Below, one piece after another: positions 47,972-53,506 of a DNA stretch of 64,000 nt (the first letter of the stretch is position 1; each line of letters starts with the position of its first letter). A program made the translations under genes and the position numbers. The notes beneath the pieces are model-generated. The model was not told the DNA's origin. It saw nothing but the letters and a program-made list of their open reading frames with translations, and did not search any database. The DNA is from Latilactobacillus sakei subsp. sakei DSM 20017 = JCM 1157 (GTDB lineage: Bacteria; Bacillota; Bacilli; Lactobacillales; Lactobacillaceae). The stretch spans positions 558,001 through 622,000 of the forward strand of contig NZ_AP017929.1 of the NCBI RefSeq assembly GCF_002370355.1, given 5' to 3'.

Positions 47972-48000
47972 TTGATTTGTCCGTATAAATATTCTATACT
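47972..48000 (+). promoter_or_regulatory. araB promoter with AraR box
   Basis: TTGATT (47972-47977) and TATACT (47995-48000), spacer 17 bp. The AraR box ATTTGTCCGTATAAAT (47975-47990) fills the spacer, so bound repressor excludes RNA polymerase. Confidence 0.88.
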
Positions 48001-48011
48001 TTAGCCAACGC

Positions 48012-48025
48012 TGAAACCGTTTTAT
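48012..48025 (+). promoter_or_regulatory. Weak cre-like site before araB
   Basis: TGAAACCGTTTTAT, just downstream of the promoter, shares the cre left half and CG core but diverges at the last two positions. Confidence 0.45.
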
Positions 48026-48090
48026 TTAAACCTTTTTTATTAAATATGAACGTGATAGCTATTTATTCAGCATTCGAGGGAGTGAATTAT

Positions 48091-49698
48091 ATGAACTTAG
48101 TAGAAATAGCACAAGCCATCAAATCCGGTCAGGTCTCATTAGGGATCGAATTAGGCTCCACACGGATTAAAGCCGTTTTAGTAGCGCAAGATTTTCAAAC
48201 CATTGCGTCAGGGAGTTTTGTTTGGGAAAACCAATTAGAAGATGGCGTCTGGACGTATCCAATTGATGCGGTTTGGACCGGGATTCAAGCGAGCTATATG
48301 CAAATGGCTGCGGAAGTCCAAAGCAAGTATCACGAACCGATTACCACGATTAAAAGTATCGGTGTCAGCGCGATGATGCATGGTTATCTCGCCTTTTCTA
48401 AGGACGATCAATTGTTGGTGCCTTTTAGAACGTGGCGCAACAACATTACCGAACAAGCGGCTGATAAATTAACCGAACAATTTAATTTTAATATTCCACA
48501 ACGGTGGAGCATTGCTCATTTATATCAAGCCATCTTAAATGACGAAGCACACGTCAGCCAAGTGGCTTTCATGACCACCTTAGCGGGTTATGTCCACTGG
48601 CAATTATCAGGTGAAAAAGTCCTCGGGATTGGCGATGCATCCGGTGTCTTCCCAATTGATCCCAAAACGGGAAGTTATGATGCTCAGTTAGTCGCACAAT
48701 TCGATCAAATCAAACGCGTTCAACAACAACCTTGGCAGTTAGCCGATATTTTACCAGCGGTCTTGACAGCGGGACACGCTGCTGGCCAATTAACGTCAGC
48801 CGGCGCGCAATTGTTAGATCCAAGCGGTAATTTGACAGCGGGCAGCTTGATGGCACCGCCTGAAGGAGATGCCGGAACCGGGATGGTCGGCACTAACAGC
48901 GTCCGCAAACGGACCGGGAACATCTCAGTCGGGACGTCAGCTTTTTCAATGGTGGTGTTAGATCAACCGCTCAAACAAGTGCATCGCGATATTGATATGG
49001 TGATGACCCCTGATGGCTCACCAGTTGCGATGGTCCACACAAATAATTGTTCGTCAGATATCAATGCTTGGGCCAATTTATTCAATGAATTTGCAGCACG
49101 CTTGGGAGTGTCATTAGCGCCTGATCGGTTATACGAAACGTTGTTCTTAGAAGCAACCCATGCCGATCAAGACGCAGGTGGTTTGATTAATTACAGCTAC
49201 TTATCCGGTGAAAATGTCACTAAAATGCCGGCTGGGCGCCCATTATTTGTCAGACAACCGCATAGCCACTTCAACTTACCCAACTTTATTCAAACGCAAT
49301 TATATGCAGCCTTTGCACCGCTTAAAATTGGGATGGATATCTTGGTGAAGGAAGAACAAATCAAGACGGATGTCATGATTGCCCAGGGTGGATTGTTCAA
49401 AACCCCCGTCGTTGGACAACAAGTCTTAGCGAATGCTTTAAACACACCGATTACGGTTATGAGTAATGCCGGCGAGGGTGGTCCTTGGGGCATGGCTGTC
49501 TTGGCAATGTTTGCCGCTGATAATAATGGTCAAACGCTCGATGATTTCTTGGATCACAACGTCTTTACGAATCCAGAAAGCATGACGCTCAGTCCAGAAG
49601 CCGCGGGTGTGGCTGGTTATCAAACCTTTATTGAGGCCTACCAAGCAGGGTTACCAATTGAAAGTGCGGCAATTGCTGCGATTAAAGATGAGAAGTGA
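48091..49698 (+). CDS. araB: L-ribulokinase
   Basis: Phosphorylates L-ribulose to L-ribulose 5-phosphate. The 535-residue FGGY kinase starts with the phosphate-binding loop SLGIELGSTRIKAVLV (about 17-32) and contains the ATP-binding GTSAFSMVVLDQP and QGGLFKTPVVGQQVLANAL-like regions. ATG 48091 follows GAGGGAG; the upstream in-frame start at 48046 lacks one. First gene of araBDA; this is the lactobacillus-type AraB rather than the E. coli type. Confidence 0.93.
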   Translation: MNLVEIAQAIKSGQVSLGIELGSTRIKAVLVAQDFQTIASGSFVWENQLEDGVWTYPIDAVWTGIQASYMQMAAEVQSKYHEPITTIKSIGVSAMMHGYLAFSKDDQLLVPFRTWRNNITEQAADKLTEQFNFNIPQRWSIAHLYQAILNDEAHVSQVAFMTTLAGYVHWQLSGEKVLGIGDASGVFPIDPKTGSYDAQLVAQFDQIKRVQQQPWQLADILPAVLTAGHAAGQLTSAGAQLLDPSGNLTAGSLMAPPEGDAGTGMVGTNSVRKRTGNISVGTSAFSMVVLDQPLKQVHRDIDMVMTPDGSPVAMVHTNNCSSDINAWANLFNEFAARLGVSLAPDRLYETLFLEATHADQDAGGLINYSYLSGENVTKMPAGRPLFVRQPHSHFNLPNFIQTQLYAAFAPLKIGMDILVKEEQIKTDVMIAQGGLFKTPVVGQQVLANALNTPITVMSNAGEGGPWGMAVLAMFAADNNGQTLDDFLDHNVFTNPESMTLSPEAAGVAGYQTFIEAYQAGLPIESAAIAAIKDEK

Positions 49699-49708
49699 GG
49701 ATTAAAGC

Positions 49709-50443
49709 ATGTTAGAAAAACTAAAACAAGAAGTGTATGACGCCAATATGCGCCTACCTAAATTAGACCTAGTCACTTTTACTTGGGGTAATGTTTCCGG
49801 AATTGATCGCGAAAAAGGCTTGTTTGTCATCAAACCTTCTGGTGTTGATTACGAAGACTTAAAACCAAGCGACATGATTGTCGTTAACTTAAAAGGCGAA
49901 GTCGTTGAAGGCAATATGAATCCTTCTAGTGATACGCCAACGCATACCGTTTTATACAATGAATTCCCAGAAATCGGTGGCATTGTGCATACGCATTCAC
50001 CTTGGGCCGTTTCATTTGCTGAAGCCGGTATTTCGGTGCCCGCACTTGGCACGACACACGCGGATACTTTTTACGGGGATGTCCCAGTTTCTGAAGCTTT
50101 AACACAAGCCGAAATCGAAAATGATTACGAAGAAAATACGGGCAAGGTCATCGTGAAAACCTTCAAGGAACAAGGTATTGATCCTGAAGCCGTCCCAGCA
50201 GTGCTTGTGCGTCAACACGGACCTTTCACTTGGGGTGCCACACCAGACAAAGCCGTTTATAACGCTAAAGTCTTAGAAGTGGTGGCTGAAATGGATTATC
50301 ACGCCCTTCAATTGACACGCAATAACAGTGCCGTGCCACAATTCTTGTTGGACAAACATTATTACCGCAAGCATGGCAAAAATGCCTACTACGGTCAAAA
50401 TAACGCCCAATCACAAGGTCATGCTAAAAAAGAAGTGCGTTAA
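49709..50443 (+). CDS. araD: L-ribulose-5-phosphate 4-epimerase
   Basis: Converts L-ribulose 5-phosphate to D-xylulose 5-phosphate, feeding the phosphoketolase route. The 244-residue class II aldolase-fold protein shows zinc histidines in IVHTHSPWAVSFAEAG (H95/H97) and RQHGPFTWG, and FTWGNVSGIDRE near the N-terminus. It follows araB by 10 nt. Its last codons (AAAAAAGAAGTGCGT) are partially repeated in the downstream spacer. Confidence 0.95.
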   Translation: MLEKLKQEVYDANMRLPKLDLVTFTWGNVSGIDREKGLFVIKPSGVDYEDLKPSDMIVVNLKGEVVEGNMNPSSDTPTHTVLYNEFPEIGGIVHTHSPWAVSFAEAGISVPALGTTHADTFYGDVPVSEALTQAEIENDYEENTGKVIVKTFKEQGIDPEAVPAVLVRQHGPFTWGATPDKAVYNAKVLEVVAEMDYHALQLTRNNSAVPQFLLDKHYYRKHGKNAYYGQNNAQSQGHAKKEVR

Positions 50444-50709
50444 AAAAGGAAGTGCATCATCAACGGGTAGCTTCTGAGCACTTGACTAACTTAGCGAATT
50501 GGCGCTACAAGCGCCGATTTGATAAGTGTGGCAAAGCGCAGGAAGCTGTTGATGAAAGCACGTTAAAAAAGAAGTACGTCAAAAGCGATTAGTTTGAAAA
50601 ATACATTAAAAAAGGAGTGCGTTTGAAACGAGTTGATTCTGAGCATTGACAAATGTCGTTAAGCGCAAGAGTCAGTTTCAAAAAGCACGTTAAAAAAGGA
50701 GTCTTTATC
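50444..50709 (+). repeat. araD-araA spacer with repeated RBS-like and hairpin modules
   Basis: This 266-bp spacer carries four copies of a motif close to TTAAAAAAGGAGTGC (about 50442, 50563, 50609 and 50691). It also carries two hairpin elements of shared plan. The first (about 50458-50555) has a basal stem TCATCAAC...AGCTTC with GAAGCT..TTGATGA and an inner GGCGCTACAAGCGCC hairpin; the second (about 50622-50678) pairs GTTTGAAAC with GTTTCAAA around TCTGAGCATTGAC...GCGCAAGA. Both share TTCTGAGCA and GCGCA[AG]GA blocks. No gene is seen. Function is unclear. Confidence 0.75.
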
Positions 50710-52134
50710 ATGTTAAACACAGAAAATTATGAATTTTGGTTTGTCACAGGGAGTCAATCATTATACGGCGAAGAAACCCTCCGATCAGTTGAAAAAGACG
50801 CTAAGGAAATCGTTGAAAAATTAAATGCGAGTCGCCAATTACCTTACCCAATCGTTTTCAAATTAGTCGCAACAACTGCTGATAATATTACGAAAGTGAT
50901 GAAAGAAGCTAACTACAACGATCACGTTGCTGGTGTGATCACTTGGATGCATACTTTCTCACCTGCTAAAAACTGGATCCGCGGGACAAAATTATTACAA
51001 AAACCATTACTTCATTTAGCAACCCAATTCTTAAACAAGATTCCATACGACACAATCGATTTCGATTACATGAACTTAAACCAATCAGCTCATGGTGATC
51101 GCGAATATGCCTTCATCAATGCGCGTTTACGTAAAAATAACAAGATTATCTCAGGTTACTGGGGTGATGAAGACGTTCAAAAAGCAATGGCTAAATGGAT
51201 GGACGTTGCGGTAGCTTACAACGAATCATTCAAGATTAAAGTCGTGACATTTGCTGATAAAATGCGGAACGTGGCCGTCACAGACGGTGATAAAGTCGAA
51301 GCTCAAATCAAATTTGGTTGGACGGTTGATTATTGGGGTGTCGGTGATTTAGTCGCAGAAGTCAATGCTGTCTCAGAGGCTGATATTGATGCTAAGTATG
51401 CTGATTTACAAAAAGAATACGACTTTGTTGAAGGTCAAAATACACCTGAAAAATTCGAACACAATGTTAAATACCAAATTCGTGAATACTTCGGTTTGAA
51501 GAAATTTATGGACGATCGTGGCTACACAGCCTTCACAACCAACTTCGAAGATTTAGTTGGGTTGGAACAATTACCTGGTTTAGCAGCCCAATTATTGATG
51601 GCTGAAGGTTATGGTTTCGCCGGTGAAGGGGACTGGAAGACAGCTGCTTTAGATCGCTTGTTGAAGATTATGGCTCATAATGAAAAGACGGTCTTCATGG
51701 AAGATTACACACTTGATTTACGTCAAGGCCACGAAGCTATCTTGGGGTCACATATGCTTGAAGTTGATCCTTCAATCGCGTCAGATAAACCACGGGTTGA
51801 AGTTCACCCATTAGATATCGGCGATAAAGACGATCCTGCACGTTTAGTCTTCACAGGGATGCAAGGCGATGCTGTGGACGTCACAATGGCTGATTATGGC
51901 GACGAATTCAAATTGATGTCATATGATGTTCGCGGCAACAAACCAGAAGCCGATACACCACACTTGCCAGTTGCTAAACAACTCTGGACACCAAAACAAG
52001 GCTTACGCGAAGGTGCCGTTGGTTGGTTAACCGTTGGTGGTGGTCACCATACAGTCTTATCATTTGCTGTTGATTCAGAACAATTACAAGATTTAAGTCA
52101 CTTGTTTGATTTAACTTACGTCAATATTAAATAA
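50710..52134 (+). CDS. araA: L-arabinose isomerase
   Basis: Converts L-arabinose to L-ribulose. The 474-residue length is standard for AraA, and family blocks are seen ([16 protein letters not shown] at the start, [24 protein letters not shown], and [10 protein letters not shown] near the end). ATG 50710 follows AAAAAAGGAG; upstream in-frame starts lie in the repeat spacer. The wide spacer from araD makes its expression separately tunable. Confidence 0.97.
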
Positions 52135-52146
52135 GGCGGTCAAATT

Positions 52147-52184
52147 AAAAGAGGCTACGGCAAAATTTGTCGTAGCCTCTTTTG
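52147..52184 (+). terminator. Terminator after araA
   Basis: Stem AAAAGAGGCTACG/CGTAGCCTCTTTT, extended by CAAA/TTTG, ends the araBDA unit. Confidence 0.92.
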
Positions 52185-52243
52185 CTATTGAAATGGGTGT
52201 CAGCTTTCTTATAGTATAATGGAGAAACGAAAGTGGGGATAAC

Positions 52244-52855
52244 ATGACAACTTTTTATTTTGTACGTCACGGCGAAACGACCATTAATAAAGCACAGTGT
52301 TTCAATGGCGGTGGGGTCGATTCTGCGTTGACACCAGCGGGGCTAGCGGCCGCAGACCGCTTGGGTGATTATCTAGGCGACCAAATTTTTGATGCCATCT
52401 TAACGTCACCGCTCCAACGCGCCCAAACGACCGCGGAACACTTACTGGCGCAATCGCGCGTTGTGCAACCGGCGTTAACGATTGCCTCCCAACTACGGGA
52501 AATGGCGTTAGGTGATTGGGAAGCACAGCCGGTAGCGGCGCAAGAAAAGCATCCGCAATTTGATAATTACTTCCACCATCCAGATTTATTTGAGGCCAAT
52601 CAGATTCACGCGGAATCCTACCAAGCCGTTTTAAAACGGGCCATGACGGTTATTGACCAAGCCCAACAAGCTTATCCAGAGGGCAACGTCTTAATTGTGG
52701 CGCACGGGATTGTTTTATTGTTTGTCATGGGAACCCTTTTAGGCGTGCCGTTTAGTGCCATTCGCGATCAAAAAATGGTGGCAAACGCAAGCCTATCGAT
52801 CTTAGAAGGCCAAGGCCAACCGTATGAAAAGGTCCTTTGGAATAAAACGGTGTAG
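52244..52855 (+). CDS. Histidine phosphatase family protein (phosphoglycerate mutase-like)
   Basis: A 203-residue phosphohydrolase with the phosphohistidine motif FVRHGETTINK at residues 5-15 and the second histidine in IVAHGIVLLF. Such proteins dephosphorylate varied small molecules; the true substrate is unknown. GTGGGGATAAC precedes the ATG. The AlkD-type gene follows 9 nt later, likely in one transcript. Confidence 0.88.
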   Translation: MTTFYFVRHGETTINKAQCFNGGGVDSALTPAGLAAADRLGDYLGDQIFDAILTSPLQRAQTTAEHLLAQSRVVQPALTIASQLREMALGDWEAQPVAAQEKHPQFDNYFHHPDLFEANQIHAESYQAVLKRAMTVIDQAQQAYPEGNVLIVAHGIVLLFVMGTLLGVPFSAIRDQKMVANASLSILEGQGQPYEKVLWNKTV

Positions 52856-52867
52856 AGGAGGCAAATG

Positions 52868-53506
52868 ATGTTGATATTCGAGTTACCCATTCATCCAGAA
52901 AACCAAGCAGCGATGGCGCGATATATGCAAGATCAGTTCACTTTTAACGGTGTCAAAGCGACCGAAAGACATGCTTATGAACGCGACTTTTGGCCAGCCG
53001 TGAAACAGTTACCAGCGGCAGAACTGATGGTGATTATTAAGGCGCTTTATGCGCGTGAAGCGCGCGAATATCAATATGTCGCAATCGATATTGCGGCGCG
53101 GGCCGTGCGCAAATGGCAACGTGCCGATCTATTGCAGTTTGCCGAATTAGTAACTGAAAAAGTATGGTGGGACAGTGTAGACCCTTGGAAACGTGTTTTT
53201 AGCGAGTACATCAAGCGTCATCCAGCTGAATTTGAATGGGTCGGGCAACTATTTGCTCAAAAAGAGAATTTTTGGTTACGCCGCGTCGGGTTGATTCTGC
53301 AATTAGGGTTCAAGAATGCAACGTGTATTGACTATTTGCAAGCTGCTATCGAAGACGATCAAACAACGCCGGAATTTTTTATCCAAAAAGCGATTGGGTG
53401 GGCCTTGCGTGATTACGCTAAGACTAATCCGGAATGGGTGATTGATTTTGTCGACACACATACGTTATCGGCATTAGCGCAGCGCGAAGCGTTAAAACAA
53501 CTCTAA
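52868..53506 (+). CDS. AlkD-like DNA alkylation repair glycosylase
   Basis: A HEAT-repeat protein of 212 residues that would excise alkylated purines. The family hallmarks are visible: EKVWWDSVDPW (Trp and catalytic Asp) and FFIQKAIGWALRDYAKTNP (Trp in the second site). ATG 52868 lies 6 nt after GAGGAGG; an ATG at 52865 is also possible. It follows the phosphatase gene directly. Confidence 0.9.
   Translation: MLIFELPIHPENQAAMARYMQDQFTFNGVKATERHAYERDFWPAVKQLPAAELMVIIKALYAREAREYQYVAIDIAARAVRKWQRADLLQFAELVTEKVWWDSVDPWKRVFSEYIKRHPAEFEWVGQLFAQKENFWLRRVGLILQLGFKNATCIDYLQAAIEDDQTTPEFFIQKAIGWALRDYAKTNPEWVIDFVDTHTLSALAQREALKQL

Follow-up and report, generated by a model that had tools for sequence, protein, structure and literature searches.

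The spacer between araD and araA of Latilactobacillus sakei (50444–50709) contains repeated A-rich segments and strong hairpins, and raises the question of whether these belong to the ara genes or to something more general. Coordinates refer to the window, that is, the whole 64,000-nt stretch of DNA that was analysed, and all features described lie on its + strand. The upstream gene, araD (L-ribulose-5-phosphate 4-epimerase; 49709–50443), was identified by Pfam PF00596 and by 80 AraD relatives, the downstream gene, araA (L-arabinose isomerase; 50710–52134), by its open reading frame and by BLAST neighbours annotated as araA. The araA start was placed at 50710 because a Shine-Dalgarno sequence (AAGGAG, 50696–50701) precedes it. 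An ATG at 50653, located inside the short hairpin and in frame with araA (ORF 50653–52134), may be taken as the start by automatic gene callers.

Read from the araD stop, the spacer opens with a linker, AAAAGGAA (50444–50451), delimited from the sequence and from the flanks of the 91 runs described below. Unit 1, a full 110-nt hairpin, begins 8 nt past the stop (50452–50561; 103.7 bits, E = 3.2e-29 with the covariance model R1, see below). It is followed by the linker GTTAAAAAAGAA (50562–50573), which resembles linkers at other loci, by unit 2 (50574–50604), by the linker ATTAAAAAAGGA (50605–50616) and by unit 3, which is shortened to 72 nt (50617–50688; 64.9 bits, E = 3.4e-17). The 3′ junction, GTTAAAAAAGGAGTCTTTATC (50689–50709), includes the araA Shine-Dalgarno sequence immediately past unit 3. 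Unit 3 lacks 38 central model positions (40 positions of R1 are replaced by 2 bases) and retains the outer arms and both internal-loop motifs. Unit 2 folds weakly by itself, and only the outer-arm letters GTAC/GTCAAA...TTTGA/TAC remain; judged from these letters and from a comparison with a congener (G001), which carries GAAGCACATT at this place, it is probably a collapsed third unit.

The original prediction had described a segment repeated four times, one copy being the end of araD, interleaved with two hairpins that share sequence blocks. Both observations are correct. A-rich segments broadly of the TTAAAAAAGGAGTGC type lie at five places, namely at 50423 (GCTAAAAAAGAAGTGC, the end of araD), 50440, 50563, 50606 and 50690; the one at 50690 is the Shine-Dalgarno region of araA. 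The blocks TTCTGAGCA and GCGCA are common to the two hairpins, and each hairpin is far more stable than its dinucleotide shuffles (z = −6.2 for 50455–50575 and −3.6 for 50612–50702; in neither case did any of 200 shuffles fold as well; the whole spacer yields z = −5.35). The A-rich segments are, however, linkers that separate the units of a genome-wide family, and there is nothing special to ara about them.

The family is genome-wide: a BLAST search with the spacer yielded 63 matches in the 1.94-Mb genome. A hairpin script that required a GTG-like foot and favoured lengths near 111 picked 88 units in the loci, 73 of them 110–112 nt long. Sixty of the 62 own-genome units of 105–117 nt (L031:1185 and L034:1833 were omitted) form alignment A1, from which 23 units of other genomes and three of other length were excluded; row 1, ara unit 1, begins one base late. 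The covariance model R1 was built from A1. Searching the L. sakei genome with R1 revealed at least 149 full-length copies and one partial row; at most 150 candidates were scored, and the true copy number may therefore be higher. The shortened ara unit is absent from the set of 149.

These numbers bear on the proposal that the spacer is a module made at the ara locus to tune araA. The genome-wide search for the hairpin family that had been put forward as its check returned, in large part, a common repeat unrelated to ara: the unit is dispersed, and the proteins encoded upstream of 20 runs, drawn at random from the 65 that follow a stop codon closely (see below), are unrelated to one another (NusG, NAD synthase, phosphoketolase, two aminoacyl-tRNA synthetases, peptidases and transporters among them). 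The hairpins are real; the ara-specific module is not. An element that adjusts araA translation or responds to arabinose in the manner of a riboswitch would fit the strong folding of hairpins placed immediately upstream of the araA Shine-Dalgarno sequence, but against it stand the number of copies, their unrelated neighbours, the smaller number of units at this locus in G001 and the araD relatives at large, 76 of 80 of which have no R1 match at the locus. We consider such a regulator extremely improbable. One part of the original prediction survives: an effect of the hairpins on mRNA stability or on araA translation is plausible, since they sit in sense orientation and separate two genes that apparently form an operon.

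Units 1 and 3 differ in arm sequence and parts of unit 3 match copies at other places (at up to 92%), so that a simple local duplication at ara is unlikely. Near-identical units do occur within one run at five other places in the L. sakei genome.

Structure, rather than sequence, is the conserved feature of the family. A full unit is an imperfect hairpin of ∼110 nt with near-constant loop letters and covarying arms, and own-genome units of the same length have a median ungapped identity of 56%. In A1, 36 of 42 pairs show changes on both sides, and 96.1% of cells are paired, compared with 71.0% after shuffling and 29–41% when the partners are slid. Alignment A2, with 64 rows from 44 loci in many genera, gives 95.0% paired cells and variation on both sides in 39 of 42 pairs, although its rows were fitted to R1 and hence lean towards the R1 structure. 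A1 shows little or no variation in the GTG...CAC foot and at several letters of the internal loops; the GTG(C/T)...CAC foot carried by the units had also been one of the criteria of the search. A1 contains 250 G-U pairs and 30 A-C mismatches (three conserved wobble columns account for 123 of the 250), and the folding strand is therefore the gene-sense strand, as RNA or as single-stranded DNA. In two units (L009:4964–5073 and L031:1384–1493) the left and right arms seemingly come from different subtypes, which suggests recombination inside arrays.

On a short time scale the picture is less clear. Nine of 17 G001 units have a match of at least 85% in L. sakei, and in these nine close pairs, some of which come from different sites, 12 changed base pairs were kept and 13 broken, none had changed on both sides and 20 changes fell on unpaired letters; the random expectation for kept pairs is 36%. 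The nine pairs give no clear signal of purifying selection on pairing in individual copies.

The 149 listed copies make up 91 runs, each with one to four units. For 76 runs the nearest frame upstream is in sense, for 15 it has the opposite direction, and in 65 runs the first unit starts 0–16 nt past a sense stop codon, scored on same-strand open frames of at least 70 codons. Controls gave 2.5% for random positions, 4.1% for non-coding positions (either strand) and 4.8% for non-coding positions outside units. Docking in antisense, scored when an opposite stop lay no more than 10 nt inside or 25 nt beyond the 3′ end, was found in two of the 91 runs. Of the runs other than the 65, three have the stop within the unit itself, nine are preceded by a T-tract and were classed on that T-tract alone, and 14 fit no class. 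The 65 docked stops comprise 47 TAA, 18 TAG and no TGA. All 18 TAG stops lie 1–2 nt ahead of the unit, as in TAG-A-GTGC. For comparison, TAG and TGA end 31 and 13 of the 186 long frames in a 260-kb part of G001, and 14 and 6 of the 54 long frames in the 64-kb window.

This pattern has to be weighed against a purely parasitic repeat, spread by DNA transposition or recombination that needs a single-strand hairpin, in which the stop-codon and sense-strand placement would reflect target preference and the purging of harmful insertions and the RNA would have no useful effect. The restriction of TAG stops to distances of 1–2 nt, as if the stop had been rebuilt at the junction, agrees with such an origin; a symmetric TA target alone, however, would not yield 65 sense and two antisense dockings in 91 runs. 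With the further evidence given below, we regard the purely parasitic reading as possible but doubtful.

Of the 91 runs, 62 have a terminator-like hairpin within 200 nt downstream, compared with 17.5% of random positions. The unit itself is not an intrinsic terminator of the type with a GC-rich hairpin and an immediate U tract: the runs continue mostly with GTT(T)AA-like letters, and the terminator-like hairpins are separate, their median start lying 30 nt further on. Since 62 runs are then followed by such a hairpin, most are not between co-transcribed genes. This is at odds with the proposal that the units are processing sites for RNase III or a similar enzyme, cut in operon mRNA so as to uncouple, at the present locus, araB-araD from araA. 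Long hairpins of the gene-sense strand and the precedent of the Correia/NEMIS elements (PMC2229807) favour this proposal, but the conserved internal loops also break up the duplex, and we judge it rather unlikely. A shared 3′ tail, ATATTCGGATA, was considered as a universal part of the unit and rejected; it is a loose motif, found at 16 of 91 runs compared with 5.2% of random positions, with some instances plainly due to chance, and is at most a subfamily feature. In some runs (e.g. at genome positions 811871, 838260 and 1063381) the tail resembles GTTTANACYATCAATATTCGGATATC and the terminator has the core GACAAAATTACTTTTGTC.

The repeat is patchily distributed beyond L. sakei. R1 matches were found in 25 of 61 Lactobacillaceae genomes and in 17 of 40 genera, with one to at least 63 copies per matching genome; 36 genomes had no match. 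This patchiness is in keeping with a parasitic repeat. At the level of the order, nine of 118 genomes matched, L. sakei included. With a broader model, R2, four of 250 Bacilli genomes are among the matches listed, namely L. sakei itself, another member of its order and two genomes from a single genus outside that order, under strict filters and with the results examined resting on 15 scored candidates per genome. The weak relatives outside the order are L303, L307 and L310 in G358 and L304, L308 and L311 in G349; of the 13 G358 copies among the matches listed, 12 share a strand and fall in the interval 0.73–1.05 Mb. Stop docking recurs in two genomes of other genera, in which a sense stop lies within 25 nt of the start in 15 of 20 sampled copies (G008, 100 found) and in 10 of 20 (G058, 62 found). 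Four of the 80 araD loci of named genomes, three from Furfurilactobacillus and one from Lentilactobacillus otakiensis, carry an R1 unit, in each case 0–8 nt past the araD stop. The araD loci of L. diolivorans and L. parabuchneri (Lentilactobacillus) have a similar hairpin after a TAG stop, outside the R1 matches. A phage origin found no support among 50,697 phage records, none of which matched at E 1e-5. Two plasmid records, both from Latilactobacillus curvatus, match unit 1 with 90.6% and 83.3% identity.

To follow the turnover of units, we used the comparison with G001, whose flanks are 84–99% identical to those of L. sakei where the ten loci align. Ten of 12 runs in the range covered were comparable: in G001 eight loci have units (one of them truncated, as judged by eye), one has a scar, AAGAGTGC-GTTTCA, and one has a 33-nt hairpin. 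The last is the counterpart, with a similar foot, of a full unit at position 698814 of the L. sakei genome. Unit number or subtype differs between the two genomes at nine of the ten loci (by eye); at one locus at least three units in L. sakei correspond to a single, different unit in G001. The araD-araA spacer of G001 contains one full unit and a scar. Runs are frequently flanked on the left by TA(A)nGA, and none of the ten loci offered a clean empty site that would display a target duplication. The sites thus seem to predate the split of the species while the units turn over. A purely parasitic repeat does not readily account for sites that are kept between two species while the units are exchanged.

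A lost unit may also have left its mark inside araD. The last codons of the gene, AAAAAAGAAGTGCGTTAA (50426–50443; KKEVR*), read as a linker followed by GTGC and GTTAA and resemble the scar AAGAGTGC-GTTTCA of G001, and an EVR ending is absent from all 80 AraD relatives.

Recent spread was seen in G058. Nine of 20 sampled copies (L264, L267, L269, L270, L272, L273, L275, L280 and L282) share a near-identical hairpin in unrelated flanks, and these copies are the product of recent spread. A tail of ∼30 nt is common to eight of the nine. In L264, L270, L273, L275 and L282 the sequence continues into terminator hairpins of one type with a T-tract, and in L280 into a terminator hairpin with other arms. 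Seven of the nine have an upstream frame in sense, and for three a sense stop is no more than 25 nt away. Young copies in unrelated flanks and less tightly tied to stops fit a parasitic repeat. In L. sakei, 19 pairs of units at separate loci are at least 95% identical.

The blocks of several young G058 copies, which run from AGA-GTG through the tail into a terminator hairpin with its T-tract, form the basis of a further and bolder reading. The repeat could be a self-spreading 3′ UTR, a stop-docking RNA hairpin that brings its own terminator and inserts mostly in sense at the ends of transcripts, possibly by a new route of mobilisation (recognition of terminating transcripts or a hairpin-specific recombinase), and would then impose dispersed post-transcriptional control on scores of gene ends. 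We regard this as distinctly improbable. Searches for three types of resident mobiliser were negative in both L. sakei and G058: a Y1 transposase (PF01797), present in eight of 17 genomes with at least 15 units, a reverse transcriptase (PF00078, RVT_1) and an IS630-type transposase (PF13358, DDE_3), above the cut-off in one of 61 genomes. The lack of these three domains in the L. sakei genome counts against a purely parasitic repeat.

In the loci scanned, no Rfam family matched above threshold. There was no match up to E 1 in 48000–53000 of the window, and across 14 loci mir-4782 was the sole family hit, with a score that fell far short of its gathering score. Nor did titles and the openings of abstracts in the open literature, on repeats of this kind in lactobacilli or on parallels, reveal a description of such a family.

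In behaviour, the closest known kind is the BOX element of Streptococcus pneumoniae. According to PMC3049150, BOX elements are small interspersed repeats of variable length that are overrepresented between convergent genes and supply the 3′-end stop codon in 36 of 58 overlaps with coding sequences; Croucher et al. argued there that the pneumococcal repeats are parasitic, which by analogy favours the same for the present family, and also considered possible stabilising stem-loops at the 3′ ends of transcripts. Set against this description, the Lactobacillaceae repeat is distinguished by its near-fixed length, covarying arms, whole-unit steps of ∼123 nt and strong docking at stops on the sense strand. 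ERIC, RUP and Correia/NEMIS elements resemble it in size (∼100–150 nt), long hairpin and terminal TA (PMC2229807). The same source states that ERIC and NEMIS act on mRNA when transcribed, that ERIC was reported to destabilise upstream transcripts and that an IS630-type mobiliser was suggested for RUP. The Lactobacillaceae units differ in forming tandem runs and in the lack of DDE_3 in L. sakei.

REP/BIME repeats, linked to RAYT transposases, likewise have many copies outside genes (PMC2817692, PMC3733652). REPs are 20–40 bp long, most with a GTAG or CGTC tag (PMC3733652), and REP-bearing mRNAs are degraded by RNase R together with PNPase (PMC12320835). The unit described here shares the many extragenic copies, but it is ∼110 nt long, has a GTGC...GCAC foot instead of a tagged 20–40-bp palindrome, and occurs in a genome without a Y1 transposase match. 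Liang et al. (2015) reportedly found many E. coli REPs within about 15 nt of stop codons, where they affect translation. EFAR elements are intergenic structured repeats of Enterococcus faecalis. Efa-1, from the same species, is described by a 163-nt model with 65 copies and consists of a pair of adjacent stem-loops (PMC2267715). Compared by description, Efa-1 and EFAR are alike in being intergenic structured repeats of a related group, and the adjacent stem-loop pair of Efa-1 contrasts with the single imperfect hairpin of the present unit.

Taken together, the reading that we favour, and hold as a whole to be probable, is that the ara spacer is an array of three units (full, collapsed and shortened) of a dispersed repeat, and that this is a mobile, non-coding, structured 3′-UTR repeat of the BOX/REP kind, transcribed with the upstream gene, whose mRNA it stabilises. 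The repeat would be transcribed within the 3′ UTR or the intercistronic RNA of the upstream gene, and its hairpin would meet the terminating ribosome and slow 3′-to-5′ exonucleases, thereby stabilising the upstream message. At the ara locus, araB-araD mRNA would be stabilised relative to araA, with a secondary influence on araA. The repeat may persist in part because insertion at a TA(A) stop rebuilds the stop and does little harm.

Several observations stand against parts of this 3′-UTR reading. Not every copy is located in a 3′ UTR, given the nine of 91 runs that come after a T-tract and the 14 without a class; the upstream frame of 15 runs also points the other way. The looser placement of the young G058 copies relative to stops and the nine close unit pairs without clear constraint on pairing stand against stabilisation, and the precedents of ERIC and of RNase R would, by analogy, speak against it as well. 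Because of the T-tract copies, the young G058 copies, the pairing result and these precedents, the purely parasitic reading stays a possible, if doubtful, alternative.

The repeat family itself brings two questions within reach of experiment. One is why the docking of a mobile repeat at stop codons favours a single orientation; the other is whether it is the host or an enzyme that maintains repeats whose arms are free and whose loops are fixed. For annotators it is a caution that spacers of this kind should not be taken for operon-specific regulators. If a role at the RNA level is true, one small genome would carry an interchangeable structured 3′ element at scores of its gene ends, and food and gut lactobacilli would possess a widespread layer of mRNA control that is absent from Rfam.
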